Of a stretch of 64,000 bases of DNA, positions 1 to 33,404 are shown piece by piece (the first letter of the stretch is position 1; every line of letters begins with the position of its first letter). Both the position numbers and the translations under genes were made by a program. The notes under the pieces were generated by a model, which did not search any database, had not been told where the DNA came from, and worked only from the letters and a program-made list of their open reading frames with translations. Location: IMG/VR virus record IMGVR_UViG_3300023083_000001, positions 78,199 through 142,198 of that record; one strand, given 5' to 3'. The DNA is from a virus.

Positions 1-754
1 CATTACCTGCGGGAGTGACTACCCAGGTCGACTGATCCATACTAACCACTGGCGCCACCAATACCCGCTGAGACCCCAGCGGCCCGTTAGCCGTGCCATC
101 GCTCGTAGTTTCACAGACGTAGATATCTTTGATCCAATAGGAGAAATCTCCCTTTACACCTGTGGACGACGGCGCCCTTCCGATGTTCAAATAACACGCT
201 GTGCCAGCTTTTAATGCTGTCAGGGTGGTGCTGGTGATAGCAATATCTGCAATCGCAACTCCATCTACCCAACGGTGGATCACACCTGCCGCCACATCCC
301 ACTGAGCTTCCAGATAATACTCTTGCTTAGATGTGTAGTTGGGAATACTACCTGCTGGGAACGCACAGCCAGTCGTAAGTTGTGCTGTGGTTGGGAGTGC
401 GTATGGCGTGATCGACAACGGCTCACTGTAGATATCGATGGCCGTAGTGGAACCTGGGGTACCATTGAGAAACCGTATTCCGATGGTGAACTTAGAAGTG
501 GCGGTGGTGACCACTAACCCAAGATCACTTAACAGCGCGTTCAAACCGTTGGCTCTGGTCTGTGTCCCGCTGGCAACTAAATCGAAATCGCTGATACGCT
601 TCAACCAGCCATCTTCGTATTTTGTATCGATATTAGTTCCAGCAGCAGCTGAGGAAGTAACCGATGTAAAAGGCGTTCCGCCCAACTTGACGGAGCCGTT
701 GGTAACTGGTGGTTTGACCAAGTCCTCCCACCCTATAACTGCACGAATAGCCAT
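1..754 (-). CDS. Family A lectin-like virion protein (partial)
   Basis: The frame is still open at the window edge, so only the first 251 codons are visible. It is a member of a paralog set (called family A here) also found at 805, 1923, 3667, 6566 and 7595. It begins MAIRAVIGWEDL, the family's opening pattern, with a GGGAG ribosome site just upstream. It contains YYLEAQWDVAAGVIHRWVDG, a strand-turn-strand pattern common in LamG/ConA-like lectin folds, then the family segment WIKDIYV. A carbohydrate- or surface-binding virion protein is inferred from this pattern and from the structural-gene neighbourhood; no function is proven. Confidence 0.75.
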   Translation of the reverse strand, partial: MAIRAVIGWEDLVKPPVTNGSVKLGGTPFTSVTSSAAAGTNIDTKYEDGWLKRISDFDLVASGTQTRANGLNALLSDLGLVVTTATSKFTIGIRFLNGTPGSTTAIDIYSEPLSITPYALPTTAQLTTGCAFPAGSIPNYTSKQEYYLEAQWDVAAGVIHRWVDGVAIADIAITSTTLTALKAGTACYLNIGRAPSSTGVKGDFSYWIKDIYVCETTSDGTANGPLGSQRVLVAPVVSMDQSTWVVTPAGN

Positions 755-804
755 GCTTTCTCTCCCATTTGTTTATACAGTGTTGGTCGTCCATGACCGG
801 CGGG

Positions 805-1911
805 TTATCCAGCGATGAGTTTGAGTTTGGCAGCTTGGATGCTGGCTCGAGTCCAGCGCGCGCCCGATGGAGACTTCTCACCTTGATACAACTTGAAACT
901 CGGTGTAATTACAGAGAGTAAATTGTTAACCACTTGACTGGATTGATCAGTCCCTGTAATAACCTGAGAAGTCAATACGCCGGGCGAACCCCCAGCTTTC
1001 TTACCCGTAGCGTTCAGAACAATACCGTTAATCTGACCGGCTGTGGAAGACATCGTCAGACCCAGGTTAGCAGTGACGTTATTTGGATCAGTCATAACTA
1101 CTGGGGTCAATAAGGAAGCTTCATCCGTAATCGCGGTATTCAACGCTGCTACAGGATCGCCTGACGGTGTGGGTAACCATGACGCTTGATCTAAGGTGGT
1201 CACGTTGATTGGAACAATACGCTGAGGCCCAAGGAAAGTATCGGCAGATCCATCATCGGTCTTCTCAATGACGTACATGTCCTTGAACCAGAAATCGTAC
1301 GCGACAGTTGCGCCGCTGGTAGGTGTGTAACCCACCCCACCAGCAAAGAAAGCGGTGTTGCTGGTGAGTAAATTCTTTACCAACGTAACCATTGACAAAT
1401 CAGCGATCGGTAAACCATCTACGCGTCTACGAATGACACCTGCTGTAACGTCAAATTGAGCTTCTAGATAATTCTCGATACCAGGTTTCCAGTTCGGAAT
1501 GCTTCCGAATGGAAAAACAGCGCCGGCGGTGACGTTTGCACCAGCGCCACCCGTCGACAAGTCGGCAGTAAGGGAAATGGGTTGCGGCCACATGGAAGAC
1601 ACCGTCACGTCCTGAGGTATCAGCCAACGGATACCAATTGTAATCACTGAGGCTGCCGATGTCACTAAGCCTAAGGCTGTCAGCGGGGCGGAGATGAAGT
1701 TCCGTTTACCTGATGTGTTGTTAGCAGTCGCTGGGTTGGTGATTGTTTTAACCCAGCCAGCTTCTTTTAGAAATGAAACACCTGCTCCTGCGGCGGTGCC
1801 GAAGTTAAAACTCATCGGCAGACCAGCGAAAGCGTACTTGGTCGCAGCGCCGTACATCTCACCAGTACGAAGCGCAAGTTCATCAAACCCTAGAATGGCA
1901 CGAATAGCCAT
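805..1911 (-). CDS. Family A lectin-like virion protein
   Basis: Predicted 368 residues. The start at 1911 (MAIRAILGFDEL) is preferred over an in-frame upstream start because AAGGAG precedes it and the family motif begins there. The middle carries YLEAQFDVTAGVIRRRVDG (lectin-like strand pattern) and FKDMYVIEKTDDGSADTFLG; the C-terminal module holds LYQGEKSPSGARWTRASI, the P-x-G-x-x-W-T element that ends each family A protein. It is closest to the next gene upstream (1923-3017), with which it shares long near-identical stretches, so the two look like a recent tandem duplication. Likely exposed on the virion; the exact location is unknown. Confidence 0.78.
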   Translation of the reverse strand: MAIRAILGFDELALRTGEMYGAATKYAFAGLPMSFNFGTAAGAGVSFLKEAGWVKTITNPATANNTSGKRNFISAPLTALGLVTSAASVITIGIRWLIPQDVTVSSMWPQPISLTADLSTGGAGANVTAGAVFPFGSIPNWKPGIENYLEAQFDVTAGVIRRRVDGLPIADLSMVTLVKNLLTSNTAFFAGGVGYTPTSGATVAYDFWFKDMYVIEKTDDGSADTFLGPQRIVPINVTTLDQASWLPTPSGDPVAALNTAITDEASLLTPVVMTDPNNVTANLGLTMSSTAGQINGIVLNATGKKAGGSPGVLTSQVITGTDQSSQVVNNLLSVITPSFKLYQGEKSPSGARWTRASIQAAKLKLIAG

Positions 1912-1922
1912 GGAACACTCCT

Positions 1923-3017
1923 TTATACAACGGTGAGTTTGAGCTTCGCAGCCAGAATTCCAGCACGTGTCCATTTGACACCCGATGGAGACTTCTCACC
2001 CTGATAGAGTTTATACCCGGAAGCCATATTGGATGTCATAGGTACTGATACCGCAGCCGATTGATCGGACCCTGTGATCAGTTGTCCGGTAACAGATGTG
2101 CTGGCGCCAGCGGCTTTCTTACCCGCTATGTTTAGACACACGGCGTTAATAGGCGCTGAGTTTGTAGGTGTCGTCAAACCTACATTGGCTACGTTGTTCG
2201 TTACATCGTTTGTAACCACTGGCGTCAACAGCGATGCGGCATCGGTAATGTCTGCGTTCAACGCATCCACTGGAGTTCCAGACGGACTCGCCAACCAGGA
2301 AGCTTGGTCCACGCTTGCCGTGGTGATTGGAACAATACGCTGCGCGCCGAGGAATGTGTCGGCGGTCCCATCGCCAGTCTTCTCAATGACGTACATGTCC
2401 TTGAACCAGAATGAGTATTCGATAGTGCCTGGGGTACTGTTGTTAGGTGGAAATAGACCCGCCCCAAACTGCGCCGTTCCTGCGGCAATAGCGGCTGCTA
2501 GGCCAGAAGTGAATGGCAGATCGGCGATCGGGACGCCATCGACTTTCCTGCGGATGACCGCGGCGGCAACGTCCCACTGAGCTTCTAGGTAGTACTCTTG
2601 ACCCGCTACCCAGTTCGGAATTGAGCCGAAAGGAAAAACTGCACCATTGATGAATCCGCTGAAGCTAACCGCGGTAACAATCTCCATTGGCTGAGGCCAA
2701 TAGTTACTGACTGTCACGTTGATCGGACACAGCCAGCGCATGCCTATGGTGAAAACCGAACTCGCGGTAGGAGTAAGACCCAGGGATTGGAGCGTACTGT
2801 ACAAATAGTTCATTTTGTTCAGGCCTGTCGACACAGTGGTGACAGTACCTTTACATTTCAACCAACCGCTTTCTTTGGTGTAAGTAACACCGGCAGCAGC
2901 CAGAGGTCCTGGTTTGAATAAGAAGGGAAGTGGACCCAGCGTAAGACCTGCTGTAGGAATCTGTTCCCCAGCGGGCATTGGTACATCGTCGTACCCGAAG
3001 AAACTACGAATAGCCAT
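1923..3017 (-). CDS. Family A lectin-like virion protein
   Basis: Predicted 364 residues, starting MAIRSFFGYDDV at 3017 with AAGGAG upstream; the longer frame to 3038 lacks a ribosome site and would overlap the preceding gene. It shares FKDMYVIEKT, DTFLGAQRIVPI and LYQGEKSPSGVKWTRA with the 805-1911 gene, from which it is separated by 11 bp. The lectin-like strand segment is YYLEAQWDVAAAVIRRKVDG. Same operon and orientation as all genes from 1 to 14931. A virion surface role is inferred from family and context only. Confidence 0.78.
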   Translation of the reverse strand: MAIRSFFGYDDVPMPAGEQIPTAGLTLGPLPFLFKPGPLAAAGVTYTKESGWLKCKGTVTTVSTGLNKMNYLYSTLQSLGLTPTASSVFTIGMRWLCPINVTVSNYWPQPMEIVTAVSFSGFINGAVFPFGSIPNWVAGQEYYLEAQWDVAAAVIRRKVDGVPIADLPFTSGLAAAIAAGTAQFGAGLFPPNNSTPGTIEYSFWFKDMYVIEKTGDGTADTFLGAQRIVPITTASVDQASWLASPSGTPVDALNADITDAASLLTPVVTNDVTNNVANVGLTTPTNSAPINAVCLNIAGKKAAGASTSVTGQLITGSDQSAAVSVPMTSNMASGYKLYQGEKSPSGVKWTRAGILAAKLKLTVV

Positions 3018-3028
3018 GTTGAAACTCC

Positions 3029-3661
3029 TTAGCTCCAACGAATCGCTGGGTCAGTAAACAAGGTGGAGAACTGCGGCAATGTCTGACCGATCGTGACTTT
3101 AGAACCTGGAATGAACCAGTAGCTAGTGGATTTAGCAACTAGCTCGACCGTGTACGCCGACGCGGAAATCGGCCCATCCACCACGTCATCCACAGTCAAC
3201 GTGATACCAACGACCGCACTGATAGCAGATAGCGCTTCGTAGATTGTGGTCGCGGTGCCGAGAGGGATGTTATTCGGATCCAGTGTCATCCTGGAAATAG
3301 GGACACGGTTGTACCGAAACCATTTGGTTCCTTTGAGTCCTGAAGCTGCTGACGCTTTGACCTGGACTCTGGCATTGTAGTTAGCGTCGTTTGTCAAAGC
3401 TTCGACCGCTACCGCTGTGAAGTCTGTGGTAGGTCGAACGGTGTTGGCCTTGGCTACGATCATCAGCAGAACAGCCTGAAGCCCTGTCACTCCTTTGGGG
3501 AGTGATTTAATGGCTGGACCGATAAGGTATCCACCAATAGACCGAACCCCCACTTGTACTGGGGGGGAGCCGATCAAGTAACCGCTGACAGACCGAAGGC
3601 TTACTTGGTTAGGGGGTGATACCGCCGCGTAACCGTTAATGGATCTCGCAGTTAAAGGCAT
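3029..3661 (-). CDS. Family B virion protein with N-terminal 17-residue repeats
   Basis: Predicted 210 residues. The first ~54 residues consist of three tandem copies of R-S-[IV]-x-G-Y-[LA]-[IV]-x-[SP]-P. The remainder is a family B N module: FRYNRVPISRM, then GITLTVDDVVDGPIS, then VELVAKSTSYWFIPGSKV, the usual order of the YNR strand, the LTxDD element and the S-x-x-Y/W strand. The C module present in full-length members is missing. The ATG at 3661 follows CGGGGTAA. The stop lies 11 bp before the next gene's start, consistent with one long transcript. Function unknown; virion structural protein by family. Confidence 0.72.
   Translation of the reverse strand: MPLTARSINGYAAVSPPNQVSLRSVSGYLIGSPPVQVGVRSIGGYLIGPAIKSLPKGVTGLQAVLLMIVAKANTVRPTTDFTAVAVEALTNDANYNARVQVKASAASGLKGTKWFRYNRVPISRMTLDPNNIPLGTATTIYEALSAISAVVGITLTVDDVVDGPISASAYTVELVAKSTSYWFIPGSKVTIGQTLPQFSTLFTDPAIRWS
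3500..3646 (-). repeat. Three tandem 17-residue coding repeats
   Basis: Residues 6-22, 23-39 and 40-54 of the 3029-3661 protein align as RSINGYAAVSPPNQVSL, RSVSGYLIGSPPVQVGV and a shorter RSIGGYLIGPAIKSL. The related opening VTGYALGDPAPAP occurs once at the start of the 5612-6562 protein, so the unit seems to be a family-wide N-terminal tag that has multiplied here. Confidence 0.85.
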
Positions 3662-3666
3662 GTCAA

Positions 3667-4710
3667 TTACCCCGTAACGTCTGGCGTGATGGTGATGACG
3701 GTCCCGTCAATCTTGCTAGCGTCCCATGCACCACCCGCAGGTGCGGTTGGCAAAGTAGCTATGGTCGATCCGTAAGCCTGCGTTTTCGGTACCGTGAGGT
3801 TACCCGCTTGGACCGTGGTACCACCTTGAGTGACCTCAATTTTAGCCAAGGTCGCGTTATTACCTTTAGCAATCACCGAAGCCATCAACTGAACAGCGTT
3901 GATTTTAAAACCTTCTGGCGTATTAGCTTTTAGGCTAAGCTTCAACGGACTTTTGTCTGTCGGAGAATCTACCGTTGCGGTTGCCGGTTGAGCAGCTGTC
4001 AACGTAGTCAGCATGTTGGTAGTACCATCACTACCTGCCCAGGCTGTTGGAGTGGCCGTCGCTTCATCAGCGTAGACAGGGTAGGTGCTGACCGAACCCA
4101 GGCGTGCAACGATCCCGTCACCAGCGATGTTGTCCAGGATGTACATATCGCGGATGCTGCACAAGTTCGTACCGCCCGACAATGTCAGCGAGAAGAACAA
4201 TGAAATTTTACCGGTCTTCATCGTGGCGATGTAAGCTGCGGTAGATACAGCGGTCAACGCTACCGACGATAACAGGAGTCCGTCACCGGAAATGGCCAAC
4301 GTGTTCGCTGTAAAATCGATTTCAAATTCCAGATAAATCTCAGCACCTACCGCTTTAGCAGCCGTCGGTAGCAGTGAGTAATCCAACACCCAACCGGCTG
4401 TACTGAAACCAATGTCAGGCCCCAGGGCAACAAAGTTACCTGTGGCGCCTGCAACCAGGGTTTTATGCCGGAAACCGATGACAATCTTGGTTGGGTTAGG
4501 CACCAAGAACTGATCGAACGAAATACCAGCAATTGTTGCTGCCGATGTCGACGTGCCTGTGGTGGATGTCAAGGCTCCGTTACTGTCGATGATCAACGGT
4601 TTCCCAGTACTGGCGTTATACCGTGAAACGACGTAGCCTGACGTAGCAATCCACGCGGCGTCGTTAACGTTCCGAACGCAGTGGTCAAACGCAAAGATCT
4701 TGCGCAACAT
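3667..4710 (-). CDS. Family A lectin-like virion protein
   Basis: Predicted 347 residues, starting MLRKIFAFDHCV, with CGGAG upstream of the ATG. This start resembles the 7595-8629 member (MLRALVGFDHCP), so these two form a subgroup. EIYLEFEIDFTANTLAISGD is the lectin-like strand pair; IRDMYILDNIAGDG corresponds to the KDMYVIE segment of other members. The C-terminal element is APAGGAWDASKIDG followed by ITPDV. It is wedged between split family B genes (4716, 5106) and a family B N module (3029). Surface-exposed virion protein by inference. Confidence 0.76.
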   Translation of the reverse strand: MLRKIFAFDHCVRNVNDAAWIATSGYVVSRYNASTGKPLIIDSNGALTSTTGTSTSAATIAGISFDQFLVPNPTKIVIGFRHKTLVAGATGNFVALGPDIGFSTAGWVLDYSLLPTAAKAVGAEIYLEFEIDFTANTLAISGDGLLLSSVALTAVSTAAYIATMKTGKISLFFSLTLSGGTNLCSIRDMYILDNIAGDGIVARLGSVSTYPVYADEATATPTAWAGSDGTTNMLTTLTAAQPATATVDSPTDKSPLKLSLKANTPEGFKINAVQLMASVIAKGNNATLAKIEVTQGGTTVQAGNLTVPKTQAYGSTIATLPTAPAGGAWDASKIDGTVITITPDVTG

Positions 4711-4715
4711 GGCAG

Positions 4716-5078
4716 TTACTCCGAATCAGTGTCAGTGGGAACGACTGGATCATTCCAGCACAGGAACAGATCACCTACAGGTGCAGTAGACCACTCTGGG
4801 AACTTCACACGCAGCGCGTATTTGAAAAGGCTGAGGGTAGCGAACTCACGGTCGTTAAGACCGTTGTAGAGCACTACAGCGCCGTTGAGCGAGTACTCAG
4901 CGGTCATCTCGGTCTGGTTCCACATCTTCTGTTGTGCCATCGGACCGGATGCGTTCAAGGCAGCGGCAATTGCTCGCTGACCGGACTCGTTCAATTCACC
5001 TTCCGGGATAGCCGACAAGAGATCAGCGTGTTCGGTGAAATCGTTTCGGAGTAGATAATTGCGCCAATCAATGGACAT
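4716..5078 (-). CDS. Family B stand-alone C module
   Basis: Predicted 120 residues. It matches only the C-terminal third of full-length family B proteins such as 8687-9562: YLLRNDFTEHADLL, then MWNQTEMTAEYSLNGAVVLY, NGLND, and DLFLCWNDP in place of the usual YLHYNDP. The upstream gene 5106-5603 supplies the matching N module, so together they look like one family member divided into two cistrons 27 bp apart. It has its own ATG and an AAGAGAT ribosome site, so it can be translated independently. It ends in an acidic PTDTDSE tail. Confidence 0.75.
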   Translation of the reverse strand: MSIDWRNYLLRNDFTEHADLLSAIPEGELNESGQRAIAAALNASGPMAQQKMWNQTEMTAEYSLNGAVVLYNGLNDREFATLSLFKYALRVKFPEWSTAPVGDLFLCWNDPVVPTDTDSE

Positions 5079-5105
5079 GGTTTTGATCTCTTATCAAAAG
5101 GAGTG

Positions 5106-5603
5106 TTAGAAACCTGGTAGCGTGTCGCCACTGAACGCTGTCTCAATATCGAGCGCAACGTTGAAAGCAACTGTCACTGAACCGAACCAACCCAAGCTGT
5201 CTGGTTTACTTTCGATCAGGAACGTGATCCCACCATCGCCGTCATCCACGGTAGAATGTTCCACCAGGTCGTCGGAGGTAAAGGTAGCCCCTGAAAGGTT
5301 TTTCAGAACCGGTAACATAGCAGCCAGGTTCTGACCGCCAGTCACAGCGATACCTCTGAAGTTAGCCAAGCCTAATGGCGTTACATCCAGGCGGTCGTAG
5401 AATACCTTAGTGCCACCCATACCCAACGTGGATGAGTCCGTAAACTTGACGCCCACCTTGGTGTTCTTTCCGTACAAGGTCTTCTCAGCCGCAGTAGTTG
5501 CAACCGGTGTACCGAATACCAGATCACTGACAGGGACAATAATTCCAGCCTTTACGCTGAACATCGCCGCCAGATCCGCTTTACTATCTAAGTAGATTGA
5601 CAT
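5106..5603 (-). CDS. Family B stand-alone N module
   Basis: Predicted 165 residues. It carries the N-module landmarks VFYDRLDVTPLG (YNR strand), ATFTSDDLVEHSTVDDGDGG (LTxDD element) and SKPDSLGWFGSVTVAF (SLGY-x-GS strand), then stops right after DTLPGF, where full-length relatives continue into the C module (compare TTLEGLNYP in 8687-9562). The C module follows as a separate gene at 4716-5078. The ATG at 5603 has a GTAGAGGCC ribosome site. Virion structural protein by family. Confidence 0.75.
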   Translation of the reverse strand: MSIYLDSKADLAAMFSVKAGIIVPVSDLVFGTPVATTAAEKTLYGKNTKVGVKFTDSSTLGMGGTKVFYDRLDVTPLGLANFRGIAVTGGQNLAAMLPVLKNLSGATFTSDDLVEHSTVDDGDGGITFLIESKPDSLGWFGSVTVAFNVALDIETAFSGDTLPGF

Positions 5604-5611
5604 GACGGCCT

Positions 5612-6562
5612 CTACGCATTCCAGTGAAGGATAAGTTTACCGCTGAACCAACTAGCGTCCACACTCTGGATCACCATCGCTCGGGTGAACCGTGCGGAGT
5701 TAGCTTCGGGGATGGAGGTAGATGGTAGGGTGTAGATGTAAGCTGTACACCCCGCCAGACCTGATGCGAGGCTGCTGTCAGTTTTAGCCCAGTTGGTCTT
5801 ACCTGAGTTGTTATTGAGCCAGGCAATGACGGCGTCGAGGTTTGCGTTAGCTGCGGTGGTGATCAGGAAACTGGTCGACAGTGCGGCAAGGTTGGCTTTA
5901 ACCGCTGAAGCGTCAAGGCCGTAGAGTTGCCATTCGCCGACAGGTTTGCGACTTTGCGAGAAGTCATTACCACCTGGATAGAGTCGGCCAATCAACGCTC
6001 GGTTAGCGTCGGTAATGATTTCGGTTATAGGACGTTTGGAACGAACCCACTGAAGCGAAACTGTACCTTTGTAGCAAAGGCCGTTAACAGCGATACCGTT
6101 GTAAACGGTATCGGCAGGCACAGTCACTACGGCGGCCATATCGGTTTCGAGGAGACTCAACCCGTATTTTGCGTTAACGTCTGCGATGAATTGGGCACGC
6201 GTGATGGAACCCGCTGCGCTGTAGAAATCAGAACGCATGATCATGTTGCGAAACAGCGCACTCATGTCAATGCGACGATACCTGACAGTGACCTTACCGA
6301 TCGTACCTGAACCCGGCGGACCAGACACCAGGACCGAGGTATCACACTTGAAAGGATCTGATGGATCAACAGTAACGGATGCCATCCCAGTAAACTGTAC
6401 TTTCGACATCCCGTACGCTGCTTTGAAGCCAGGGTTGGATACTTCGATCAGGTCGTAAATCAGTCGGTTTTGCGGGAGGCGTAGGTCGCTCGGCGGTTGT
6501 GCTGGCGCAGGTGCAGGATCTCCCAACGCATAACCCGTTACGGCACTTAGTGCAATAGTCAT
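5612..6562 (-). CDS. Family B full-length virion protein
   Basis: Predicted 316 residues with both modules. It opens with an extra segment, VTGYALGDPAPAP, like the repeat unit of the 3029-3661 protein. N module: TVRYRRIDMSALF, then YGLSLLETDMAAVVTV and GTVSLQWVRSKRP. C module from about residue 190: RLYPGGNDFSQSRKP, TNWAKTDSSLASGLAGCTAY and SWFSGKLILHWNA at the very end, equivalent to the YLHYN terminus of other members. The ATG at 6562 lies 4 bp after the stop of the 6566 gene. Virion structural by family and operon. Confidence 0.76.
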   Translation of the reverse strand: MTIALSAVTGYALGDPAPAPAQPPSDLRLPQNRLIYDLIEVSNPGFKAAYGMSKVQFTGMASVTVDPSDPFKCDTSVLVSGPPGSGTIGKVTVRYRRIDMSALFRNMIMRSDFYSAAGSITRAQFIADVNAKYGLSLLETDMAAVVTVPADTVYNGIAVNGLCYKGTVSLQWVRSKRPITEIITDANRALIGRLYPGGNDFSQSRKPVGEWQLYGLDASAVKANLAALSTSFLITTAANANLDAVIAWLNNNSGKTNWAKTDSSLASGLAGCTAYIYTLPSTSIPEANSARFTRAMVIQSVDASWFSGKLILHWNA

Positions 6563-6565
6563 ATC

Positions 6566-7579
6566 TCAACCTACTGTGTCTGGGGTGATGACTGCCTCAC
6601 TAGCGTTCAGTTTACTGATCGTCCACGCCGCTCCATCTGGAGCTTTATGGACTACGCCGAGAGAAGTTCCATAGGAAATTGTGGTCGGCGCAGGTACCGA
6701 AGCCGTTGCTTTGTCAGTGCCGTTCAAACTGAGTTTAGTCAGTGAGGATGTGGCGCCGTCATTGGATTTGTTGGCAACGGACAGTTCGACCGCATTGATG
6801 TTGATCGGGACGGTGTCTTTCAAACCATCCAGTAACAAACCTACGGTCAATGGCGCCTTCGACGATGGGCTGGAAAGAGTCGCTTTCCCCGAAGTGCCGA
6901 GACCTTTCTTCAACGCTGGAAGAAGTTCGCTAGCGTCACTGGCTGCCCAACCTGTACCTTGCGCCTTATCAAGCAAGACCGGATAGACTTGCCGAGGACC
7001 TAGACGGCCTGTAGGTCCACCGTCTGCGGAGGCCACATCGTTGCTGATGTAAATGTCGCGAAGACTGGCGCGTTGAGTCTTGGCGTACCCGCGTGTCAAG
7101 ATGCCGACTATCGACTGAGCAGTGCCGGCTTTCATTGCCGCGATGTAGGAAGAAAGACTTGGACCATTGCTGATTGCCACGTCGTCCACCCATCGACGTG
7201 TTGCACCTGTCGTTAGGTTGATCTCTACTTCCAAGTAATAGATACCACCCACTTTGACCGATGGAATCTCGCTCATGTAGAAGATCACAGAACCCAGATT
7301 AGGTCCATACATCAACGTATGGTTGGCGTCAAGCACGTCAACCCTTACACGCATCCCAATGTAGACCAGGTTCGCAGGCGCTGCGCAGGCAGCGAAGTGT
7401 TTCAGATACAGACCTTCGGGAATGGTGGTAGCGGTCCCTTGTGGAGTCACCCATCCATTAACAATGGTCGCGGTGTCCGATGCTTCGTTGGCGAACAAAG
7501 GACCCAGGAAAGGAGACCAAACGCTTTGAGGTACGCTTGGTGGTAAATGTTCAAATCCGATAATTGCTTTAACGGCCAT
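6566..7579 (-). CDS. Family A lectin-like virion protein
   Basis: Predicted 337 residues, starting MAVKAIIGFEHLPP with a CAGGAGT ribosome site. YYLEVEINLTTGATRRWVDD is the clearest example in the window of the lectin-like E-x-[ED]-[IL]-(n)-W-V-D pattern. The middle segment is LRDIYISNDVASADGGPTG and the C-terminal element is APDGAAWTISKLNASEAVIT, ending in PDTVG. It is followed 4 bp later by the family B gene 5612. Probably displayed on the particle; no enzymatic motif seen. Confidence 0.77.
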   Translation of the reverse strand: MAVKAIIGFEHLPPSVPQSVWSPFLGPLFANEASDTATIVNGWVTPQGTATTIPEGLYLKHFAACAAPANLVYIGMRVRVDVLDANHTLMYGPNLGSVIFYMSEIPSVKVGGIYYLEVEINLTTGATRRWVDDVAISNGPSLSSYIAAMKAGTAQSIVGILTRGYAKTQRASLRDIYISNDVASADGGPTGRLGPRQVYPVLLDKAQGTGWAASDASELLPALKKGLGTSGKATLSSPSSKAPLTVGLLLDGLKDTVPININAVELSVANKSNDGATSSLTKLSLNGTDKATASVPAPTTISYGTSLGVVHKAPDGAAWTISKLNASEAVITPDTVG

Positions 7580-7594
7580 GTAAATGACTCCTGA

Positions 7595-8629
7595 TTAACT
7601 CACAATGTCCGGGGTCAGCAACAGTGAGGTCGAATCGATATTGGCCTTCGTCCATGCCACACCACCTGGGGCTTTAGGGTAGACGCCGAGCTGGAACGTG
7701 TATTTTAGCGTTGTACCCGGAGTCACTGGAGCACCGGCCAGCGTATCAGAACCGTTCTTCAGCGACACACCAAACTGGTTCGAAGCTGTGTTACCGTTAC
7801 CCGCAAACAAGAGTGACACGGCATTGATCGTCTGACCGTCAGCTACGTCGCATTTGAGGCTGATGTCCAATGGCGCTTTACTCGCACCAGAGGTTGCTAC
7901 CGAAGTGTTGGTTGAATCAGCTGATCGGGTGAGAGTGCTCAACAACGATCCACCATCGGTGGTGGTCCAATCAGTGCCGCTGATTACGTCAGCGTAGATC
8001 GGTACCAACTGCTGAGGGCCCAGCATACCAACAAACCCGTCACCGGCCACGTCATCGGAGACATAGATGTCACGATAAGCCATTGTGCTATTACCTGAGT
8101 TGTTTCCAGAAAAGCGAAACTCAAGGTAGAAAAGACGTGCCAGTAGTTGAGCATTGGTCAGTTCAGCTGGCATGCCGACGTTCTTAATGAACGTGCTGTT
8201 GACATAAACCGCAATAACTCGAGTGGTGATGTTGAGGACGAATTCGAGATAGCTGATTGCTCCGACAGCACTGTTTGCGGCCGGAAGGTCGCTGTCAGCC
8301 AGAAGCTGCATGGCGTATTTACTCAAATCTGTAAGACCGATGTAATAACTCGATTGAAACGTTTCCACAACCTTCATTCTAATGCCGATGAATATCTTGG
8401 TCGGCGTACCCGATACCGGGAAAGGGGCAAGGTTAAGCATCAGGTTAGTGTACCCGCTAGGCGAAACGCCTGCGGGCGTAGTCAACCAACCGTTGTTATC
8501 AATGTAAATGTTCTTGCCGAATCCACCGCTAAGACTGGGTGAATATGTGGTGTACCCACTGTTGTACTGCCAGCTATTGAGAGCCAGCAGCTTTGGACAA
8601 TGGTCAAAGCCAACCAATGCGCGAAGCAT
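7595..8629 (-). CDS. Family A lectin-like virion protein
   Basis: Predicted 344 residues, starting MLRALVGFDHCPKLL after a CATGGAG ribosome site. The lectin-like strands are ISYLEFVLNITTRVIAVYVN; the middle segment is YRDIYVSDDVAGDGFVGMLG; the C-terminal element is APGGVAWTKANIDSTSLLLT with PDIVS at the end. Upstream, a perfect 8-bp hairpin (8658-8676) separates it from the family B run 8687-12984, so its transcription may be partly independent. Confidence 0.77.
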   Translation of the reverse strand: MLRALVGFDHCPKLLALNSWQYNSGYTTYSPSLSGGFGKNIYIDNNGWLTTPAGVSPSGYTNLMLNLAPFPVSGTPTKIFIGIRMKVVETFQSSYYIGLTDLSKYAMQLLADSDLPAANSAVGAISYLEFVLNITTRVIAVYVNSTFIKNVGMPAELTNAQLLARLFYLEFRFSGNNSGNSTMAYRDIYVSDDVAGDGFVGMLGPQQLVPIYADVISGTDWTTTDGGSLLSTLTRSADSTNTSVATSGASKAPLDISLKCDVADGQTINAVSLLFAGNGNTASNQFGVSLKNGSDTLAGAPVTPGTTLKYTFQLGVYPKAPGGVAWTKANIDSTSLLLTPDIVS

Positions 8630-8657
8630 AGCTAATACTCCATGATGAGTCAGGAAT

Positions 8658-8676
8658 GGGTGCCCTCAGGGCACCC
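8658..8676 (-). terminator. Hairpin between family B and family A genes
   Basis: GGGTGCCC (8658-8665) pairs with GGGCACCC (8669-8676), loop TCA. On the minus strand it is preceded by TAAGCGGCATAG, where TAA is the stop of the 8687 gene. No T tract, so partial termination or processing is likely. Confidence 0.75.
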
Positions 8677-8686
8677 ACTATGCCGC

Positions 8687-9562
8687 TTACGCGTTGAGGT
8701 CGTAAGGATCGTTGTAGTGCAAGTACATGATGCCCGACGGCGTTGTGACGGCGTCACGCAGCTTCAGAGCCAGAGCGTACTTGTAGTTCGGGTTCGTTGG
8801 CAGCGCAGCGCTGTTCAAACCGTTACTTACAACTGTTGCACCCGACAGCGACCAGGTAGCGGTGCTGGACGATTCGTTCCACAGCGTTTTGCCCGAACCG
8901 ATATCTAGAGCTTTGAACGCTGCAACCAGCGCAGTGACCGTAGCAGCCGGCAGTGCACCGGCGTTCAGCGTAGCCAACGTGTTGAAGTACGACGTGAAGT
9001 CGTAGCCGTACATGTAGAGCTGTGCGTACGTGTCGGTATCGTTCGCGGTTGGGTAGTTCAGACCCTCAAGCGTTGTGTCGGTAACAACCGAGTTCAACGA
9101 AGCACCACCCGCCGTGATGTTCAATGTGACACTGCCGATCCAACCGATGGAGTTGGTTTTGGCAGTCAGCACAACCGAACGAGTACCATCACCTGCGTCT
9201 ACAATCGCAGTGTCTTCGATATCGTCAGTGGTAAAGTGCAAACCGTTCCAGTACGACAGCCATGGGATCAACCCATGTGCAGATGTCACACCGTAACCTG
9301 TCAGGGTAAACCCTTTGAGGTTGGTGCCGTTCAGATCGTTCAGTTTCAAACGATCGTACACGATGGACTTACGGCCTTTGAACTGACCGCCTGCTTTGGC
9401 ACCAACGACAATGCCGGTGTTACGCAGTGTCGTTTGATCTTTCCAGGTACCAGAGACAGGCACCGGGTTACTGAACTCCACGTCGTTCAACGTAAAGGTC
9501 GTCGCGTTCTTCGCATTCAGACCTGCGAGTAGATCAACGACTGATACACTTTGATAGGACAT
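8687..9562 (-). CDS. Family B full-length virion protein
   Basis: Predicted 291 residues and a good reference for the family. N module: SIVYDRLKLNDLNG, LHFTTDDIEDTAIVDAGDG, AKTNSIGWIGSVTLNI, DTTLEGLNYP. C module: MYGYDFTSYFNTL, TLWNESSSTATWSLSGATVV, NGLN, then MYLHYNDPYDLNA at the C-terminus. The split pair 5106/4716 aligns along its whole length. The stop codon is followed by GCGGCATA and a hairpin, the flank also used at several other gene ends in this window. Confidence 0.78.
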   Translation of the reverse strand: MSYQSVSVVDLLAGLNAKNATTFTLNDVEFSNPVPVSGTWKDQTTLRNTGIVVGAKAGGQFKGRKSIVYDRLKLNDLNGTNLKGFTLTGYGVTSAHGLIPWLSYWNGLHFTTDDIEDTAIVDAGDGTRSVVLTAKTNSIGWIGSVTLNITAGGASLNSVVTDTTLEGLNYPTANDTDTYAQLYMYGYDFTSYFNTLATLNAGALPAATVTALVAAFKALDIGSGKTLWNESSSTATWSLSGATVVSNGLNSAALPTNPNYKYALALKLRDAVTTPSGIMYLHYNDPYDLNA

Positions 9563-9576
9563 TAACTTCGCTCCGA

Positions 9577-10533
9577 TCAGACGTTGTAGTGGATGTAGTG
9601 AGTACCTGCACCGTACGTCGCTTCAAGCGCGGTTGGAACGGTAAGGATCAATACACGATTGTAATAATCAGCATTAGCCTCAGGCGCCGACAACTTACCT
9701 GCGGCAGTAGACAGATCTACTACGCGACCATTCCAGGTGCTAAAGCCGTACGCCGTACCGTCCGGCGTGTCTGTAACAAGCGTGGTGCCGTAAAGAGCGT
9801 TGAGACGGGTGAGGAAGCGGGCCATCCACTGGATGAGCTGCGTGGATGCGCCTTCCCAGCTATTAGGATAACTATTCCACTTAACGCCAGCCAGGATGAA
9901 GTCAGACCAGTCAACACCGTACGCCATGTTGCTGACAACCACCGCGTGAGCGCCGCTGAAGTCATTACCACCTGGGAACTTACGAGTACCATCCAGATCA
10001 GTCACAGCGATCATGCCCGAAATATCCTGACCATCCGCGCGCCATTTAAGCGTGAACGAACCGGTGTAGCCCAAACTGCCAGGTTTAGCGTTGACGGTGA
10101 CCGATGTAGTGTAGTAACCGTTTTCCTGAGTAGAACCCAGCAAGATATTTCCGTCGATCACGTCATCAGTGGTCAAGTTGAGACCGTACTGCTGGTTGAT
10201 CGATTGTAGCAGGTCGTAGACGCTGAAGACGACCGCGTTTGGATTGCCCGAGTTCTGCGCTGTCGAGAACTTGTTGATCTGGATAGTCATACCCCGAGTC
10301 AACGTGGCCAGGTTCAGACGGCGGTAGTTGACAGACTTACGACCGAGGTAATCTTTACCGGTAATTGCCGCCACCACGACTGCGGTATTCAGAAGCGGTT
10401 GACCTGCGACGGTAGCAGCAGCTGGGACACCCAAGGTGGCGTTAGCTGGAGATACGGGAATCGGCATCGATGGGTTGGCCTGGTTGATGAGGTCATACAC
10501 CAGCGCAGCCGATGACTTGTTGAAAATAGGCAT
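9577..10533 (-). CDS. Family B full-length virion protein
   Basis: Predicted 318 residues. N module: SVNYRRLNLATLTRG, YGLNLTTDDVIDGNI, AKPGSLGYTGSFTLKW, then TRKFPGGNDFSGAH leading into the C module, which ends in TYGAGTHYIHYNV. The linker FPGGNDFS is shared with the 5612 protein (YPGGNDFS), tying these two together within the family. The ATG at 10533 is preceded by GACGAGG. Neighbouring genes of the same family are 5 and 14 bp away. Confidence 0.77.
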   Translation of the reverse strand: MPIFNKSSAALVYDLINQANPSMPIPVSPANATLGVPAAATVAGQPLLNTAVVVAAITGKDYLGRKSVNYRRLNLATLTRGMTIQINKFSTAQNSGNPNAVVFSVYDLLQSINQQYGLNLTTDDVIDGNILLGSTQENGYYTTSVTVNAKPGSLGYTGSFTLKWRADGQDISGMIAVTDLDGTRKFPGGNDFSGAHAVVVSNMAYGVDWSDFILAGVKWNSYPNSWEGASTQLIQWMARFLTRLNALYGTTLVTDTPDGTAYGFSTWNGRVVDLSTAAGKLSAPEANADYYNRVLILTVPTALEATYGAGTHYIHYNV

Positions 10534-10538
10534 CTTGA

Positions 10539-11330
10539 TTAAACCTCGTCAAGCAAGTTGTAATGGAGATAGATCGCCCCGGATAGAGCGCTGGCTCCTG
10601 GCGTTCCTTGAATGACCACACGATCAAACAGTGGGTTACTGTCTGGGACCGCCGACGTGGCATGGTCGGTGATTGCACCGAGTGACCATGTAGGGATACC
10701 CAGATAGAGACACGCCGTCTGCAACGCTTTAAAGTCAGTATACCGGCCCGTCTTCGGATCGATCTTGATGAAGTCCCGCAGGCTGGTAAAGTCTTGCCCC
10801 CACGTTGTCATCCGTGCTGATGCGAGCTGGGTCGCCAGATTGATCGGGTGGCGCAGCTTCTGGAGAATGACCACACGGATGACATCACTCAACAGCGTCC
10901 TGCCGTACAGAACGGTAAGGCTACCTTGGTTGACGTAACCCATGCTGGTCGTTTTGGCAACCAGAGTCAATTCCTGAGGTTGGTCCAGGGTCGGTGTCGG
11001 TACCGTGAACGGTTCGAAGTCATCAGTCGTCAACGACAAACCAAATTGTTGGTTGATCAGCTCAATGACTGAAGTAGCCGTGAAAGGACTCGTACTTCGA
11101 ATCGCTTGGTCTGTCAGTACCTCACCCAGATCGGCACGGTTGTAGAAGACATCCACGCTGCCTTTATAGATACGACCTGGTACAGCATCGATCGTGACCT
11201 TGGTGTTGTGTTCATCACTTTGGTCAAAGACTGCGGGTTGCAATGAAACGTTGACAAGGTTCAGAGGCTTAGCGGGAGTGTTGACCCGGTTCACCTCAGT
11301 GAGTAACTTGTTAGTCGGAAGCTCTGCCAT
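10539..11330 (-). CDS. Family B full-length virion protein
   Basis: Predicted 263 residues. N module landmarks: SVDVFYNRADLGEVL, FGLSLTTDDFEPFTV, AKTTSMGYVNQGSLTVLYGR. C module: TWGQDFTSLRDFIKI, IPTWSLGAITDHATSAV and GAIYLHYNLLDEV. The ATG at 11330 has a CGAGGT ribosome site. The DFTSLRDF and YLHYN elements match 8687-9562. Structural virion role inferred from family. Confidence 0.77.
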   Translation of the reverse strand: MAELPTNKLLTEVNRVNTPAKPLNLVNVSLQPAVFDQSDEHNTKVTIDAVPGRIYKGSVDVFYNRADLGEVLTDQAIRSTSPFTATSVIELINQQFGLSLTTDDFEPFTVPTPTLDQPQELTLVAKTTSMGYVNQGSLTVLYGRTLLSDVIRVVILQKLRHPINLATQLASARMTTWGQDFTSLRDFIKIDPKTGRYTDFKALQTACLYLGIPTWSLGAITDHATSAVPDSNPLFDRVVIQGTPGASALSGAIYLHYNLLDEV

Positions 11331-11346
11331 GACCTAAACCTCGTAG

Positions 11347-12174
11347 TTATAGCGGATCGTCAAAGTGAAGGTACAACGACCCAGACAGACCCAACGAGTT
11401 GACTTCCAGAAGATCAACCACGATCACGTGTTCGTAATCAGGATTGCTTTCCAGTGGCAGATCCGCAGTCTCACCAGCGTAGCGTACGGTCGCGCCCAAG
11501 AGCGAATAACGCGCTGCCTTATCGCTGACCCAAGCATCTCCTGTAATCGTCTTCAGTGCTTGTAGAATCACTGTACCGATCTGTGTCGCGCCGGTACCCA
11601 CTGTCAACAAGTCGTTCGCTGCGGTGAAGTCTCTCCAATACGAATACATCGGAGCGTACGGCTTGGTCACCTGAGCATTCGGATACGACAATCCAGGAAG
11701 AGTGGACTGGAGCACGAAGTCTTCAATCGGCAACGATCCAAGCGCACATGTAAACTTGACAGAACCCAACCAGCCAAGACTGGTGCTCTTAGCCACCAAC
11801 GTTACGTCACCTACACCGTTGACCAAACCCGATGGTCCATCGACGATGTCATCAGTTGTGAAGTTGGTACCGTACAGTACGTTCAAGCGCTGTGCGACCG
11901 CCATCATGGTGTCGAGCTTATAACCCCGAATGTTTGTCGGAACCAACTGCGTCAGATCAGCCAGGTTCAGACGACGATAGCGTACTGTGGCGGCGCCGTC
12001 GTAAGGACTGTTGATGTCTTTGGCGACAATGCTGATCGAGGTATTGGTACCTGACCCATCGTCAGCCACGACTGTCGGATTGCCGTACGTGTATTCGCTC
12101 TCGACCAAGACCACCCCATTAAGGGATTTGATCGCACTGAGGATTTCCTCAAGCGGTCTTTTATACAAAGACAT
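11347..12174 (-). CDS. Family B full-length virion protein
   Basis: Predicted 275 residues. N module: AATVRYRRLNLADLTQL, YGTNFTTDDIVDGPSG, AKSTSLGWLGSVKF, QSTLPGLSYP. C module: MYSYWRDFTAANDLLTVG, WVSDKAARYSLLGATVRYAG and SGSLYLHFDDPL. The ATG at 12174 follows AAGGGG. It is one of five consecutive two-module paralogs (8687-12984), the densest stretch of the family. Confidence 0.77.
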   Translation of the reverse strand: MSLYKRPLEEILSAIKSLNGVVLVESEYTYGNPTVVADDGSGTNTSISIVAKDINSPYDGAATVRYRRLNLADLTQLVPTNIRGYKLDTMMAVAQRLNVLYGTNFTTDDIVDGPSGLVNGVGDVTLVAKSTSLGWLGSVKFTCALGSLPIEDFVLQSTLPGLSYPNAQVTKPYAPMYSYWRDFTAANDLLTVGTGATQIGTVILQALKTITGDAWVSDKAARYSLLGATVRYAGETADLPLESNPDYEHVIVVDLLEVNSLGLSGSLYLHFDDPL

Positions 12175-12192
12175 ATTTGAAACCCCTTAATA

Positions 12193-12984
12193 CTAATTGA
12201 AGTGGAAGTAAGCCGAGCCGGCGTAGTCTGGACCGCTCACGTTCTTCTGAATGATCACGTTACCGAAGGCCTTGTTGGCTTCCGGGATATTCGCTGTCGA
12301 ATAGATAGCGACGTCGTAACGCTGAGGCACAGGGAAGTTTGCGAACCCAAGGCTGAGCATCAGGTCTTGCACCGCTTTGACATTAGACCAGTAGCCTGCA
12401 TACACACCGAGCTTCTTGGCATCTTCAGTGAAGTCGATGCCCCATGTGCACATACTCAACGACTTCTTCGCCGGTACGATAACGTCAGGGTGTTTCAACA
12501 CACCCAACTTGATATCTGCAAGTGCACCACCCAACAGTGGACGGATACGTTCGAACTTGACCACGAAGTTACCTTCGTACCCCAGCGAGTTATCTTCAGC
12601 AACAAAGTTCAGGTTGGCCTGCTCGTTACCGCCGATCCATTCGATCTGCTGGTTGACGATGTCACGCTCTTGCAGGTTCAGACCCAGCCGCTTGTTCAGC
12701 AGAGGGAGAATACCGTGCAAGCTATTTTGACCCAAGTCCCTGATGGAAGGACGAGTCTGCCCGAAGATAGTGTTGAAGTTAAAACGCTTGTACTTGAAGG
12801 TGACGTAACCCTCGTACTCTTCATTGTTGTACATCGTGACCGTGGGAACGTCGACGGTCCCGTCTGCATTCTTTCTAGGCTTGCCGTAGTAGAGATCACC
12901 AACGGCCAAGTTTACTGGAAGATCGTTGTTTTCATTGATCAGGTCGACCAGCGCCTGTTCCGATGATCCCTGTGTGAGGAACAT
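12193..12984 (-). CDS. Family B full-length virion protein
   Basis: Predicted 263 residues. The thrice-repeated strand signature is clear: YEGYVTFKYKRFNF (about residue 57), LGYEGNFVVKFERI (about 134) and DYAGSAYFHFN at the C-terminus. The LTxDD element has drifted to LGLNLQERDIVNQ. The ATG at 12984 follows CAGGAGA. A terminator-like 16-bp hairpin (13035-13072) separates it from the upstream gene 13088, so transcription of the 1-12984 run may start or be adjusted here. Confidence 0.77.
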   Translation of the reverse strand: MFLTQGSSEQALVDLINENNDLPVNLAVGDLYYGKPRKNADGTVDVPTVTMYNNEEYEGYVTFKYKRFNFNTIFGQTRPSIRDLGQNSLHGILPLLNKRLGLNLQERDIVNQQIEWIGGNEQANLNFVAEDNSLGYEGNFVVKFERIRPLLGGALADIKLGVLKHPDVIVPAKKSLSMCTWGIDFTEDAKKLGVYAGYWSNVKAVQDLMLSLGFANFPVPQRYDVAIYSTANIPEANKAFGNVIIQKNVSGPDYAGSAYFHFN

Positions 12985-13034
12985 AAAGCATCTCCTGGTT
13001 CATGGGGAATACCAGCTAACTAACCACAAACAAA

Positions 13035-13072
13035 ATAGACAGGAGTGGGGCCGAAACCCCACTCCTGTCTAT
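13035..13072 (-). terminator. Strong hairpin terminator
   Basis: A perfect 16-bp stem, 13035-13050 pairing with 13057-13072, with a 6-nt loop. On the minus strand it is followed by ATTTTGTTTG, a modest T tract. It lies just past the stop of the 13088 gene and before the 12984 start. Confidence 0.85.
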
Positions 13073-13087
13073 TCGAAGGGGAGCTGA

Positions 13088-13633
13088 TTATGCGCCAGCA
13101 GGCGGTGCGTAGGTCAGGCCGTTCAGTTCGGTCGTGGTGATGACGCTGCTCAGTTCAACTTCTTCCGATTTCAGTTGGAAGGTCAAGCTGTTGGTGTAAC
13201 ACAGGGAGTCAGCATTGGCCACAACTTGCACATCGTGCACTTCGTTCAACGTGCCGGAGAAAGCAGGCAGGTTGCCGTCGACGTAATCGTCAGCCGTCAG
13301 GTTGATACCCAGACGGGCGTTGATTTCAGGGATGATGTCGGAGATCTTGGTGGCATCGCCAACCATGAACACCATGTCACGGCCAGCGCCGGCGGCGACG
13401 TACACCGATGCGATCTGTGTGGTCAGGTGCAGGCGGTTGTACTTGATGACTACCGAGCCTTTGTAACCCGAACCATCTTCAGCGGTCACGGTCAGACTGG
13501 TGTTCTTCGAACCAGTGTCGACGATTGGCAGATCGAACTGCAACATCTCCTGGGTGAACGACTGACCAGGGTTGCTGGTATTGATGAGGTCAAGAATGAC
13601 CGCAACGGGGATTTTGGTTAGATCGTTAGCCAT
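13088..13633 (-). CDS. Family B stand-alone N module
   Basis: Predicted 181 residues from the ATG at 13633 (MANDLTKIPV), which fits the family; the frame continues to an ATG at 13684, but that start sits inside a perfect 14-bp palindrome and adds a non-family leader. Landmarks: SVVIKYNRLHLTTQI, LGINLTADDYVDGNLPAF, ADSLCYTNSLTFQL, and a C-terminal ELNGLTYAPPAGA. The C-terminal LNGLTYAP is shared with 32808-33404. It is flanked by hairpins on both sides and may be expressed as a single-gene unit, perhaps at a high level, as its codons are strongly C/G-ending. Confidence 0.77.
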   Translation of the reverse strand: MANDLTKIPVAVILDLINTSNPGQSFTQEMLQFDLPIVDTGSKNTSLTVTAEDGSGYKGSVVIKYNRLHLTTQIASVYVAAGAGRDMVFMVGDATKISDIIPEINARLGINLTADDYVDGNLPAFSGTLNEVHDVQVVANADSLCYTNSLTFQLKSEEVELSSVITTTELNGLTYAPPAGA

Positions 13634-13670
13634 GGAATAATTCTCTCGAGAATATACAACAGAAGTGATC

Positions 13671-13684
13671 GTGTCGGCCGACAC
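13671..13684. promoter_or_regulatory. Perfect 14-bp palindrome
   Basis: GTGTCGGCCGACAC is fully self-complementary and lies about 40 bp upstream of the 13088-13633 start, between two hairpin-bounded genes. It could be an operator for a dimeric regulator. No matching second copy was noticed in the window. Confidence 0.4.
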
Positions 13685-13730
13685 ATAGAATTGAGGGTGC
13701 TCTTCCTTAAGTTCCTATAGCATCAACAGC

Positions 13731-13761
13731 ATAGAGAGGAGGGTCAACCCCTCCTCTCTAT
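13731..13761 (-). terminator. Hairpin terminator overlapping a stop codon
   Basis: A 13-bp perfect stem (13731-13743 with 13749-13761) with a 5-nt loop. The TGA stop of the 13761-14300 gene provides the first bases of the stem. On the minus strand it is followed by GCTGTTG, similar to the sequence after the hairpins at 29695 and 53445; no long T tract. Confidence 0.75.
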
Positions 13762-14300
13762 CAATTACCTGGTGCTGCGTAGATCAGAGCGTCGTAATCA
13801 CGGCTGATAATGACATCGCTCAGTGGAATCCAGTCCGGGTGAACACGTAGAATGATCGTGCCGGTGTAACACAACGAGTTTGGCGCCACAGTCAAAGGGA
13901 CGTCTATATACGTCGGACTGTCATCGTCAAACACCGGTAGCGTAGCGTCGACAATCTTGTCAGCGGTGAGCTTTATCTTGAGACGCTCGTTGAGTTCAGG
14001 CAACAGCTGCGACAGCTTAGTGTACTCGCTAGTCTCAAAGTCAAGAATGTCTACTGGGTATTCAGGAACAAACCTGGATAACGCCACACGGTTGTAGTAG
14101 AAGGTCTGACTACCACTGTAACCTCGCCCTGCGATCGCCGTGGCGATAATGCTGGTGTTACGGTTGACGCCTTGGGTCGGAGTGTAGTTGTTAGGTGCTC
14201 CGAATGTGACCTGGCCTGTCGTCAGCGGCTTGCGTTCGTTATCTTCGCGGATAAGGTCGATCAACAAGTCGATCTCATTACGGGTGTAGTCAATGGCCAT
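13761..14300 (-). CDS. Family B stand-alone N module
   Basis: Predicted 179 residues, starting MAIDYTRNEIDLLIDL. Landmarks: SQTFYYNRVALSRFV, LKIKLTADKIVDATLPVFDD, APNSLCYTGTIILRV, and a terminal DALIYAAPGN equivalent to LNGLTYAPPAGA of 13088. The LIDLIRE-x-N element at residues 12-21 corresponds to the LIN-x-x-N opening of other members. No C module. The ribosome site is weak (GAGACT), suggesting translation coupled to the 14329 gene 28 bp upstream. Confidence 0.75.
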   Translation of the reverse strand: MAIDYTRNEIDLLIDLIREDNERKPLTTGQVTFGAPNNYTPTQGVNRNTSIIATAIAGRGYSGSQTFYYNRVALSRFVPEYPVDILDFETSEYTKLSQLLPELNERLKIKLTADKIVDATLPVFDDDSPTYIDVPLTVAPNSLCYTGTIILRVHPDWIPLSDVIISRDYDALIYAAPGN

Positions 14301-14328
14301 ACATGCAGTCTCATTAAGAGGTTAGATA

Positions 14329-14931
14329 TCAGGAAGGTTGGAAACCATTTAGGTCAGGTTCCCCTACCGCAACTCTCAACGGGTTGCTACCGGAAGACAA
14401 TTGATCATAGTTTCCGCCATCGGTCAGGACTGGATCGAATGGGGACGTAAAGCCATTTAGCACGTTATTGAGGAACTCATCTTTCAGGATCGAGTCGGCT
14501 TCACCCAACAAGACTGTCAACTCACCGATCCAGATCAACTGCGTAGGGTTGACTTTAATGAAGACAGAATTGGGACTTACGACAAACTCAATCAGATCCT
14601 CGAGTGGAATAAAGAAGTTGTATTTCTTGATCAACGCTTCAAACAATGTAGCGTGGTCAATCCTTCCGTCGATGTGGACCGAAGGCTGTGGTTCATCTAT
14701 CTCATTGAAAGCTTCTTGAATATCAATGCGATTGTAGAAATATTCGTAACTGCCGTAGACAGTCGGGTGTAACGATGTAGCCAAGACACGAGTGTTCGTA
14801 TCACCTTCGAAGGAGCCAGCGACCGGGGTGGTGAATTCCAGGTCTTCTGTCCTTAAGTTGACTCCGTTCTCCGCCAGGACCTCCTGGTTAGATGATCGAA
14901 TCAACTCGACCAAGATCTGCTTACCGGTCAT
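14329..14931 (-). CDS. Family B N module, first gene of the array
   Basis: Predicted 200 residues, starting MTGKQILVELIRSSNQ. YEYFYNRIDIQEAF and LIWIGELTVLLGEAD are the two strand signatures. It continues into FLNNVLNGFTSPFDP and ends in PDLNGFQPS; the same F-x-N-N-x-L-N-G-F pattern occurs in 32808-33404, pairing these two distant copies. It is the first gene transcribed leftward from the divergent gap at 14932-15084, so the array's promoter most likely lies there. Confidence 0.74.
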   Translation of the reverse strand: MTGKQILVELIRSSNQEVLAENGVNLRTEDLEFTTPVAGSFEGDTNTRVLATSLHPTVYGSYEYFYNRIDIQEAFNEIDEPQPSVHIDGRIDHATLFEALIKKYNFFIPLEDLIEFVVSPNSVFIKVNPTQLIWIGELTVLLGEADSILKDEFLNNVLNGFTSPFDPVLTDGGNYDQLSSGSNPLRVAVGEPDLNGFQPS

Positions 14932-21425: not shown

Positions 21426-21618
21426 TCCATGCTATGGAAAACGCCGTATTTAATACGGTAATATGTAGAGTGCGTGTTAATTCACGTACTTAAAGATTTC
21501 TTTACGCCCTGCGGGACGTAGGATCGCTTTGGTTGGTGCACTAATCAGAGGCGGGCGTCGATCCTAAACACAAAGCTTTGATCACTTAAAGATACCAAAT
21601 GGCTATTTGGAGCTGTAC
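21426..21618 (+). promoter_or_regulatory. Structured leader of the capsid gene
   Basis: A 193-bp non-coding gap. It contains the palindrome CCGTATTTAATACGG (21444-21458), a 10-bp direct repeat ACTTAAAGAT (21488-21497 and 21584-21593), complementary pairs ACGCCC (21504-21509)/GGGCGT (21553-21558) and TAGGATCG (21519-21526)/CGATCCTA (21559-21566), and the palindrome CAAAGCTTTG (21571-21580). The pairs cross each other, so they form either a pseudoknot or alternative folds. A strong capsid promoter is expected here; the AT-rich TTTAATACGGTAATATG is the best candidate. Confidence 0.5.
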
Positions 21619-32808: not shown

Positions 32809-33404
32809 CACGCATCCCTCTGCCTGATAGGCGCATAGGTCAGGCCGTTCAGCTCTGGTTTGGCAAGCACCGCAGGAAGCGGGTACTCCTCAAACACAGG
32901 CGGATAAAAGCCATTAAGAATGTTGTTAGAAAATGCATCAGCCAGTTGTAGTGAAACACCCGGCTCATTGAGCATTACTGTCGTCTGTCCGACCCACCTC
33001 AACGAATTTGGTTTAGCCTTGAGTACGAAGCTGTTAGATTCAACCAGCCCGTTCTCGAAGTCATCTTCCGTAAACGCTAACCCTGAAGCTGCTGCCATGT
33101 TGGTCAACACCCCCAGAATTGTAATCGGAGGTGTGATGTCCAAAGACATGCCAGCAAAGATCTCACTGACAGATATCCGGTTGTACCGGTAAGTCATCTG
33201 TCCGGTATAAGAGCTGTAGATAACTTCATCTATCGTATCGCGGGTTTTGATGACCACATCGGTCAGCGTTTCTGATCCAGCAACTACCACCGGATCACCT
33301 ACCGTCGTAAACTCCGGCCGTAGGGTAATATTGAAGTGGTTATTGGCCATGATCAGTAATGCCACGGCGGGATCGTATTTCAATAACCGTAGCGTTTCAG
33401 ACAT
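32808..33404 (-). CDS. Family B N module
   Basis: Predicted 198 residues. GQMTYRYNRISVSEIFAG, SGLAFTEDDFENGLVE, AKPNSLRWVGQTTVML, then FSNNILNGFYPPVFEE and a terminal ELNGLTYAP. The last two elements match 14329-14931 and 13088-13633, so this is a dispersed copy of the N-only subtype. Translationally coupled to 31771-32808. Confidence 0.74.
   Translation of the reverse strand: MSETLRLLKYDPAVALLIMANNHFNITLRPEFTTVGDPVVVAGSETLTDVVIKTRDTIDEVIYSSYTGQMTYRYNRISVSEIFAGMSLDITPPITILGVLTNMAAASGLAFTEDDFENGLVESNSFVLKAKPNSLRWVGQTTVMLNEPGVSLQLADAFSNNILNGFYPPVFEEYPLPAVLAKPELNGLTYAPIRQRDA

Follow-up and report, generated by a model that had tools for sequence, protein, structure and literature searches.

A conserved array of DUF7941 proteins and lectin-like partners in a phiKZ-like jumbo phage, a candidate assembly of the virion surface

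What does a phage build with a long run of neighboring genes drawn from two expanded protein families? Such an array occupies positions 1-14931 of the window, the name used here for the whole 64,000-nucleotide stretch that was analyzed (bases 78199-142198 of the 258,357-base, or 258 kb, virus record IMGVR_UViG_3300023083_000001), and continues for about 2.7 kb past its left edge into L004, a neighboring stretch of the same genome (coordinates preceded by an L number run within the stretch so labeled). As judged from its sequence, the record is that of a phiKZ-like jumbo phage, and the window also carries a divergent DnaB (19277-20809), a PHIKZ120-type major capsid protein (21607-23880), a PHIKZ128 homologue (34382-36655) and a PHIKZ129-type portal (36642-39389). 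Farther to the right lie a duplicated pair of large phrog_3573 proteins (43367-46312 and 48458-51337) and, near them, short proteins related to PHIKZ131/133-135 (46336-46980 and 51357-52106), all of which are probably baseplate or fibre genes. For the array itself we favor, at even chances, a reading in which the proteins of family B form a scaffold that displays lectin-fold arms of family A on the surface of the virion, most likely on the head.

The original prediction of two paralogous families encoded on the minus strand was borne out by all-against-all BLAST and by family HMMs, since A copies were linked at 21-51% identity (E down to 1e-110), most B copies were linked directly or via an intermediate, and the HMMs recovered every copy of both families. 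Six A copies lie in the window, as had been counted, five of them complete (7595-8629, 344 aa; 6566-7579, 337 aa; 3667-4710, 347 aa; 1923-3038, 371 aa, with a likely start at an internal ATG near 3017; 805-1974, 389 aa, with a likely start at an internal ATG near 1911) and one truncated where the window begins (1-754, running on to L004:19651, 367 aa in total); the seventh copy of the genome is found just outside, at L004:18564-19640. The twelve B copies are indeed twelve open reading frames, but unequal ones. Four hold the N domain only: 14329-14931, the first gene of the array (200 aa; phrog_1037, E 1e-14; DUF7941 above cut-off), 13761-14300 (179 aa; phrog_1037, E 2e-31; DUF7941), 13088-13684 (198 aa; phrog_1037, E 1e-32) and 3029-3661 (DUF7941), where the domain follows three 17-residue repeats of the R-x-V-x-G-Y-A-L type. 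N and C domains occur together in 12193-12984 (263 aa), 11347-12174 (275 aa), 10539-11330 (263 aa), 9577-10533 (318 aa), 8687-9562 (291 aa; E 1e-52; AF2 model with pLDDT 88.7) and 5612-6562 (316 aa), all matching DUF7941, and 5106-5603 (165 aa) and 4716-5078 (120 aa) form a split pair. Outside the window the array continues with B genes at L004:17911-18552 (minus strand) and L004:17310-17858 (plus strand). Apart from the array, B proteins are encoded in a minus-strand trio at 31771-34372, all of whose members match DUF7941: 31771-32811, in the group adjoining the PHIKZ128 homologue, 32808-33404, with the N domain only and a match to PHIKZ127 (E 2e-4), and 33416-34372, with two tandem N domains. 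A profile search of the phage's own genome placed DUF7941 at 18 places above the curated 27-bit cut-off, two of them lying near 48-50 kb in the record. The sequence signatures proposed for the two families are present in a looser form than described, as counts per copy revealed the strict Y-x-G-[ST]-x(3,4)-Y-N-R in three B copies, L-x-L-T-x-D-D in two B copies, W-V-D in two of seven A copies and [KR]-D-[MI]-Y-[VI] in six of the seven; the near-invariant core of B consists of G63, Y69 and R71.

Nearly the same gene order was found in seven relatives (L026, L027, L028, L029/L030, L031, L035 and the Burkholderia phage FLC9). When 109 N domains of family B were placed in a tree, most array copies of the eight phages clustered with their positional counterparts, a single copy from each phage, and support was 97-100 in most cases; the positional clades of 11347-12174 (100/93), 10539-11330 (99/97), 9577-10533 (97/83) and 8687-9562 (99/94) have eight members each, that of 12193-12984 has seven (100/99), and 13088-13684 and 5106-5603 fall into positional clades as well. 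Since each of these copies has a single counterpart per phage, and their order is kept among distant phages with only 27-61% identity in the major capsid protein, the tree and gene maps indicate that the B slots are old and specialized. The split pair is conserved too: by homology its two frames are the N half and the C half of what was once a single gene, one Pfam match (4749-5603) covers both and passes three stop codons, the split recurs in L026, L027, L028, L030, L031 and FLC9, and in L035 the N half is fused to the preceding copy.

The relatives also tie the two families together. One open reading frame of L026 (14931-16124) joins A and B through two 17-residue repeats, and gp314 of FLC9 is likewise a mixed A/B protein, which suggests that both families work in one structure. 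Repeats of the same period stand at the N-termini of 3029-3661, of L004:17911-18552 and of their orthologues in L030, L027, L026 and FLC9, and two of them begin the relatives' counterparts of 5612-6562. They number from two to about seven (FLC9 gp310), their periodicity was reached in 0-1 of 2000 shuffles for the six proteins tested, and they are possibly a docking element. In FLC9, L031 and L035, Laminin_G_3 domains (E down to 5e-58) are inserted between the two domains of an A protein or stand behind A or B. An A insert of L028 (12569-14182) gave a weak discoidin-like (F5/8 C) match, with E 0.007 for the insert alone; a fibrinogen-like tail guessed by eye in L028:15259-16686 was not confirmed by Pfam. 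FLC9 carries its array as the hypothetical proteins gp309-gp326, with both families, the gene order, the split gene and the hairpin junctions found here; unlike the window phage, it has many copies with one to three Laminin_G_3 domains, and its A proteins form a clade of their own.

Family A is nearly undescribed. In four of the five copies tested it matched phrog_2448 weakly (E 9e-8, for 7595-8629, to 1e-3), with no match for 1923-3038; Pfam returned no family, Laminin_G included, for the four copies of the window phage that were tested, and PDB searches by sequence returned nothing. The family is present in FLC9 and in four IMG/VR relatives, and was not found in Salmonella phage SPN3US, low thresholds included. 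The AF2 model of 7595-8629 (pLDDT 87.1, pTM 0.86) is predicted to combine a concanavalin-A-like jelly roll with a beta-sandwich, and in Foldseek it matched sialidase, legume lectins, alginate lyases and other carbohydrate-binding jelly rolls of the PDB with probability 1.0 and E values of 2e-5 to 5e-4. The superpositions were poor (TM at most 0.5, rmsd mostly above 6 Angstrom), which, with the lack of a Pfam lectin domain in the window phage's own copies, counts against reading A as lectin arms. Against BFVD the model matched virion structural or uncharacterized proteins of several other phages along the full length of A (best E 5e-17, TM 0.74), some phages giving two or three matches each. 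The large surface structure first proposed for the array gains support from the lectin-like fold predicted for A and from the Laminin-G domains grafted into the relatives' A and B proteins, and it is from these two observations that we infer a position on the virion surface.

Family B is better known. It is Pfam PF25613 (DUF7941), with phrog_1037, phrog_2935 and phrog_3589, and by homology it is Paralog family B of SPN3US, whose array is also found by the PF25613 profile; a search with window positions 11347-12171 returned no relatives. In 2016 the SPN3US authors described family B as potentially larger than any other paralog family of a single phage genome (PMC5105663), so that its large-scale paralogy is already known from that phage. 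Its approximately 20 members were assigned to the head when tailless mutants were analyzed by mass spectrometry, and are mostly of low abundance, with gp141 and gp160 each exceeding 300 copies per capsid, and the 2017 paper assigned them no function (PMC5694885). They are at least as abundant in tailless heads as in virions (PMC5694885; PMC10052503), and later work with a tail-tube mutant left the family, broadly, assigned to the head but transferred gp237, first listed as family B, to the tail (PMC10052503). The member list of the 2017 paper names gp161 and its abundance text gp160 (PMC5694885). With the B profile, gp155 and gp160 matched DUF7941 and gp161 gave no match; Pfam found no domain in gp146, gp149, gp150 and gp153, and a sub-threshold match only in gp147. 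The SPN3US members (the gp138-154 array, gp83 and gp160) share with the present array the protein family, the tandem habit and a number of about 20 per genome; their abundance varies from member to member, and lone members stand near the portal and the PHIKZ128 homologue, as here. Unlike the arrays described here, that of SPN3US is partly filled by other partners that neither of our profiles matches, and the split N/C gene, the 17-residue repeats and the Laminin-G inserts were not seen in it. The three DUF7941 virion proteins of phiKZ (PHIKZ126, PHIKZ127 and, more weakly, PHIKZ143) form no array. PHIKZ127 is a chain of PDB entry 9xqd, whose title places it in the outer peripheral region of the phiKZ baseplate; a literature search found no paper describing the entry. 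The gene order 126-127-128-portal is matched by the trio at 31771-34372, so by synteny the trio, and not the array, is the counterpart of PHIKZ126/127. Because PHIKZ127 sits in the baseplate and gp237 was reassigned to the tail, the DUF7941 domain is used in different parts of the virion and is not specific to the head. The original description of the array as virion genes agrees with the SPN3US head paralogs and with the place of PHIKZ127 in a solved phiKZ baseplate map.

The array does not seem to have shared the history of its genome in every lineage. The genome that contains L026 (G001) is as distant from the window phage as FLC9, its major capsid protein being only 27% identical, its portal 29% and its PHIKZ128 homologue 36%, against 53-61% in the same comparison for two other relatives (G002 and G004). 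Nevertheless, its array B copies are 50-60% identical to those of the window, values that most B copies of G002 and G004 match at best, the window phage and L026 are sisters at four positions of the B N-domain tree, and the genes adjoining the array in L026 show 31-40% identity. With an array so close and capsid, portal and PHIKZ128 homologue so distant, horizontal exchange of the block would be the simplest reading in this one relative, a chimeric contig being the alternative.

Where on the virion would the array products sit? The proteomics of SPN3US family B points to the head and PHIKZ127 to the rim of the baseplate. According to the second possibility, which we hold to be a serious one although rather unlikely, the array would form the outer baseplate rim or tail-associated fibres, with DUF7941 as the adaptor of the periphery and A proteins as accessory receptor binders. 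Besides the 9xqd entry, it is favored by the exchange of the block independently of the capsid protein and by the surroundings of the L026 array, which adjoins genes related to window positions 47758-51364, a block with fibre-like genes close to the relatives of PHIKZ131/135. However, SPN3US gp138-154 are at full level in the tailless heads of 255(am107), where baseplate proteins of the PHIKZ131 type drop (PMC10052503), and the synteny of PHIKZ127 leads to the separate trio. It is improbable, in our estimation, that the products instead lie inside the head, are packaged there together with the DNA and are ejected into the host, like those of SPN3US Paralog family A (gp53/54). The authors of the SPN3US work did mark gp143 as 'Head ejection?', and a large amount of internal protein is seen in bubblegrams (PMC7552025), but lectin domains of the Laminin-G type grafted into the relatives' copies make little sense inside a head, and array proteins are absent from the eight processed head proteins that were listed (PMC5694885).

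The two families differ in how they have diverged. Between the same phages, identity is 33-40% for A and 40-60% for B, the exceptions being the 1923-3038 lineage (54%) and the upstream A copy (44%), and A forms lineage-specific groups, such as the FLC9-clade cluster and the set made up here of the edge copy, 805-1974 and 1923-3038, whose only close relative outside is one gene of L030. Hence the original idea that host receptors selected the whole array as an expanded set of receptor-binding variants has only a slim prospect of being right: the fast divergence of A, its duplication within lineages and lectin inserts that differ between clades would suit it, so that it may hold for A, but B consists of old position-specific orthologues in conserved order, 40-60% identical to their counterparts in nearer relatives, and shows no sign of recent expansion within the array.

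The array was also thought to be a single leftward operon. Its genes in the window do lie on one strand, but strong terminator-like hairpins separate some of the copies. On the minus strand, an intrinsic-terminator-like hairpin with a 19-pair stem (13033-13074) follows 13088-13684, and the same junction carries one in all seven relatives compared, thus in eight of eight phages. The gap at 8630-8686, after 8687-9562, holds an 11-pair hairpin, and the junction is likewise occupied in L026, L031, L035, FLC9 and L028 (six of eight phages). The hairpin sequences differ between phages though the junctions are conserved. Strong hairpins also stand behind the genes for the two abundant SPN3US proteins gp141 and gp160, that after gp160 preceding a convergent gene and hence being expected anyway.

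Taken with these observations, the scaffold reading would run as follows. The array would encode one multi-subunit assembly on the virion surface, in which each DUF7941 protein occupies a fixed position of its own, held over long evolutionary time, and the A proteins are mounted on this scaffold as lectin-fold arms; the slot between the two A domains would accept further lectin domains in some phages, and the terminator hairpins at fixed junctions would govern how much of each copy is made. Its kinship with SPN3US makes the head the most likely site of the assembly, where it may bind glycans of the host cell or of its surroundings and so keep the phage near its hosts. In the way it would work, it resembles the capsid decoration proteins of the T4 Hoc type, accessory surface proteins with adhesive domains that are able to bind targets (PMC7602432); Hoc is one protein, whereas the array has many distinct paralogues, and the comparison is of function only, with no homology claimed.

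What is new here is the one-to-one order of B across distant phages, the split B gene, the A-B fusion and the Laminin-G inserts, the probable exchange of the block and the recurrent hairpins. A testable idea follows from the companion family A and its predicted lectin-like fold, from the A-B fusion and from the Laminin-G domains of the relatives: a fixed scaffold that displays sugar-binding domains. FLC9, as an isolated phage, would allow such a test. More tentatively, the array might be a transferable surface module, about ten DUF7941 slots with swappable lectin-fold arms that were passed on jointly between phages with only approximately 27-29% identity in capsid and portal, and so an exchangeable glycan-binding coat apart from the tail fibres. 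The separate history of the block, if true, would suggest that distant phage lineages can pass an entire virion appendage from one to another.
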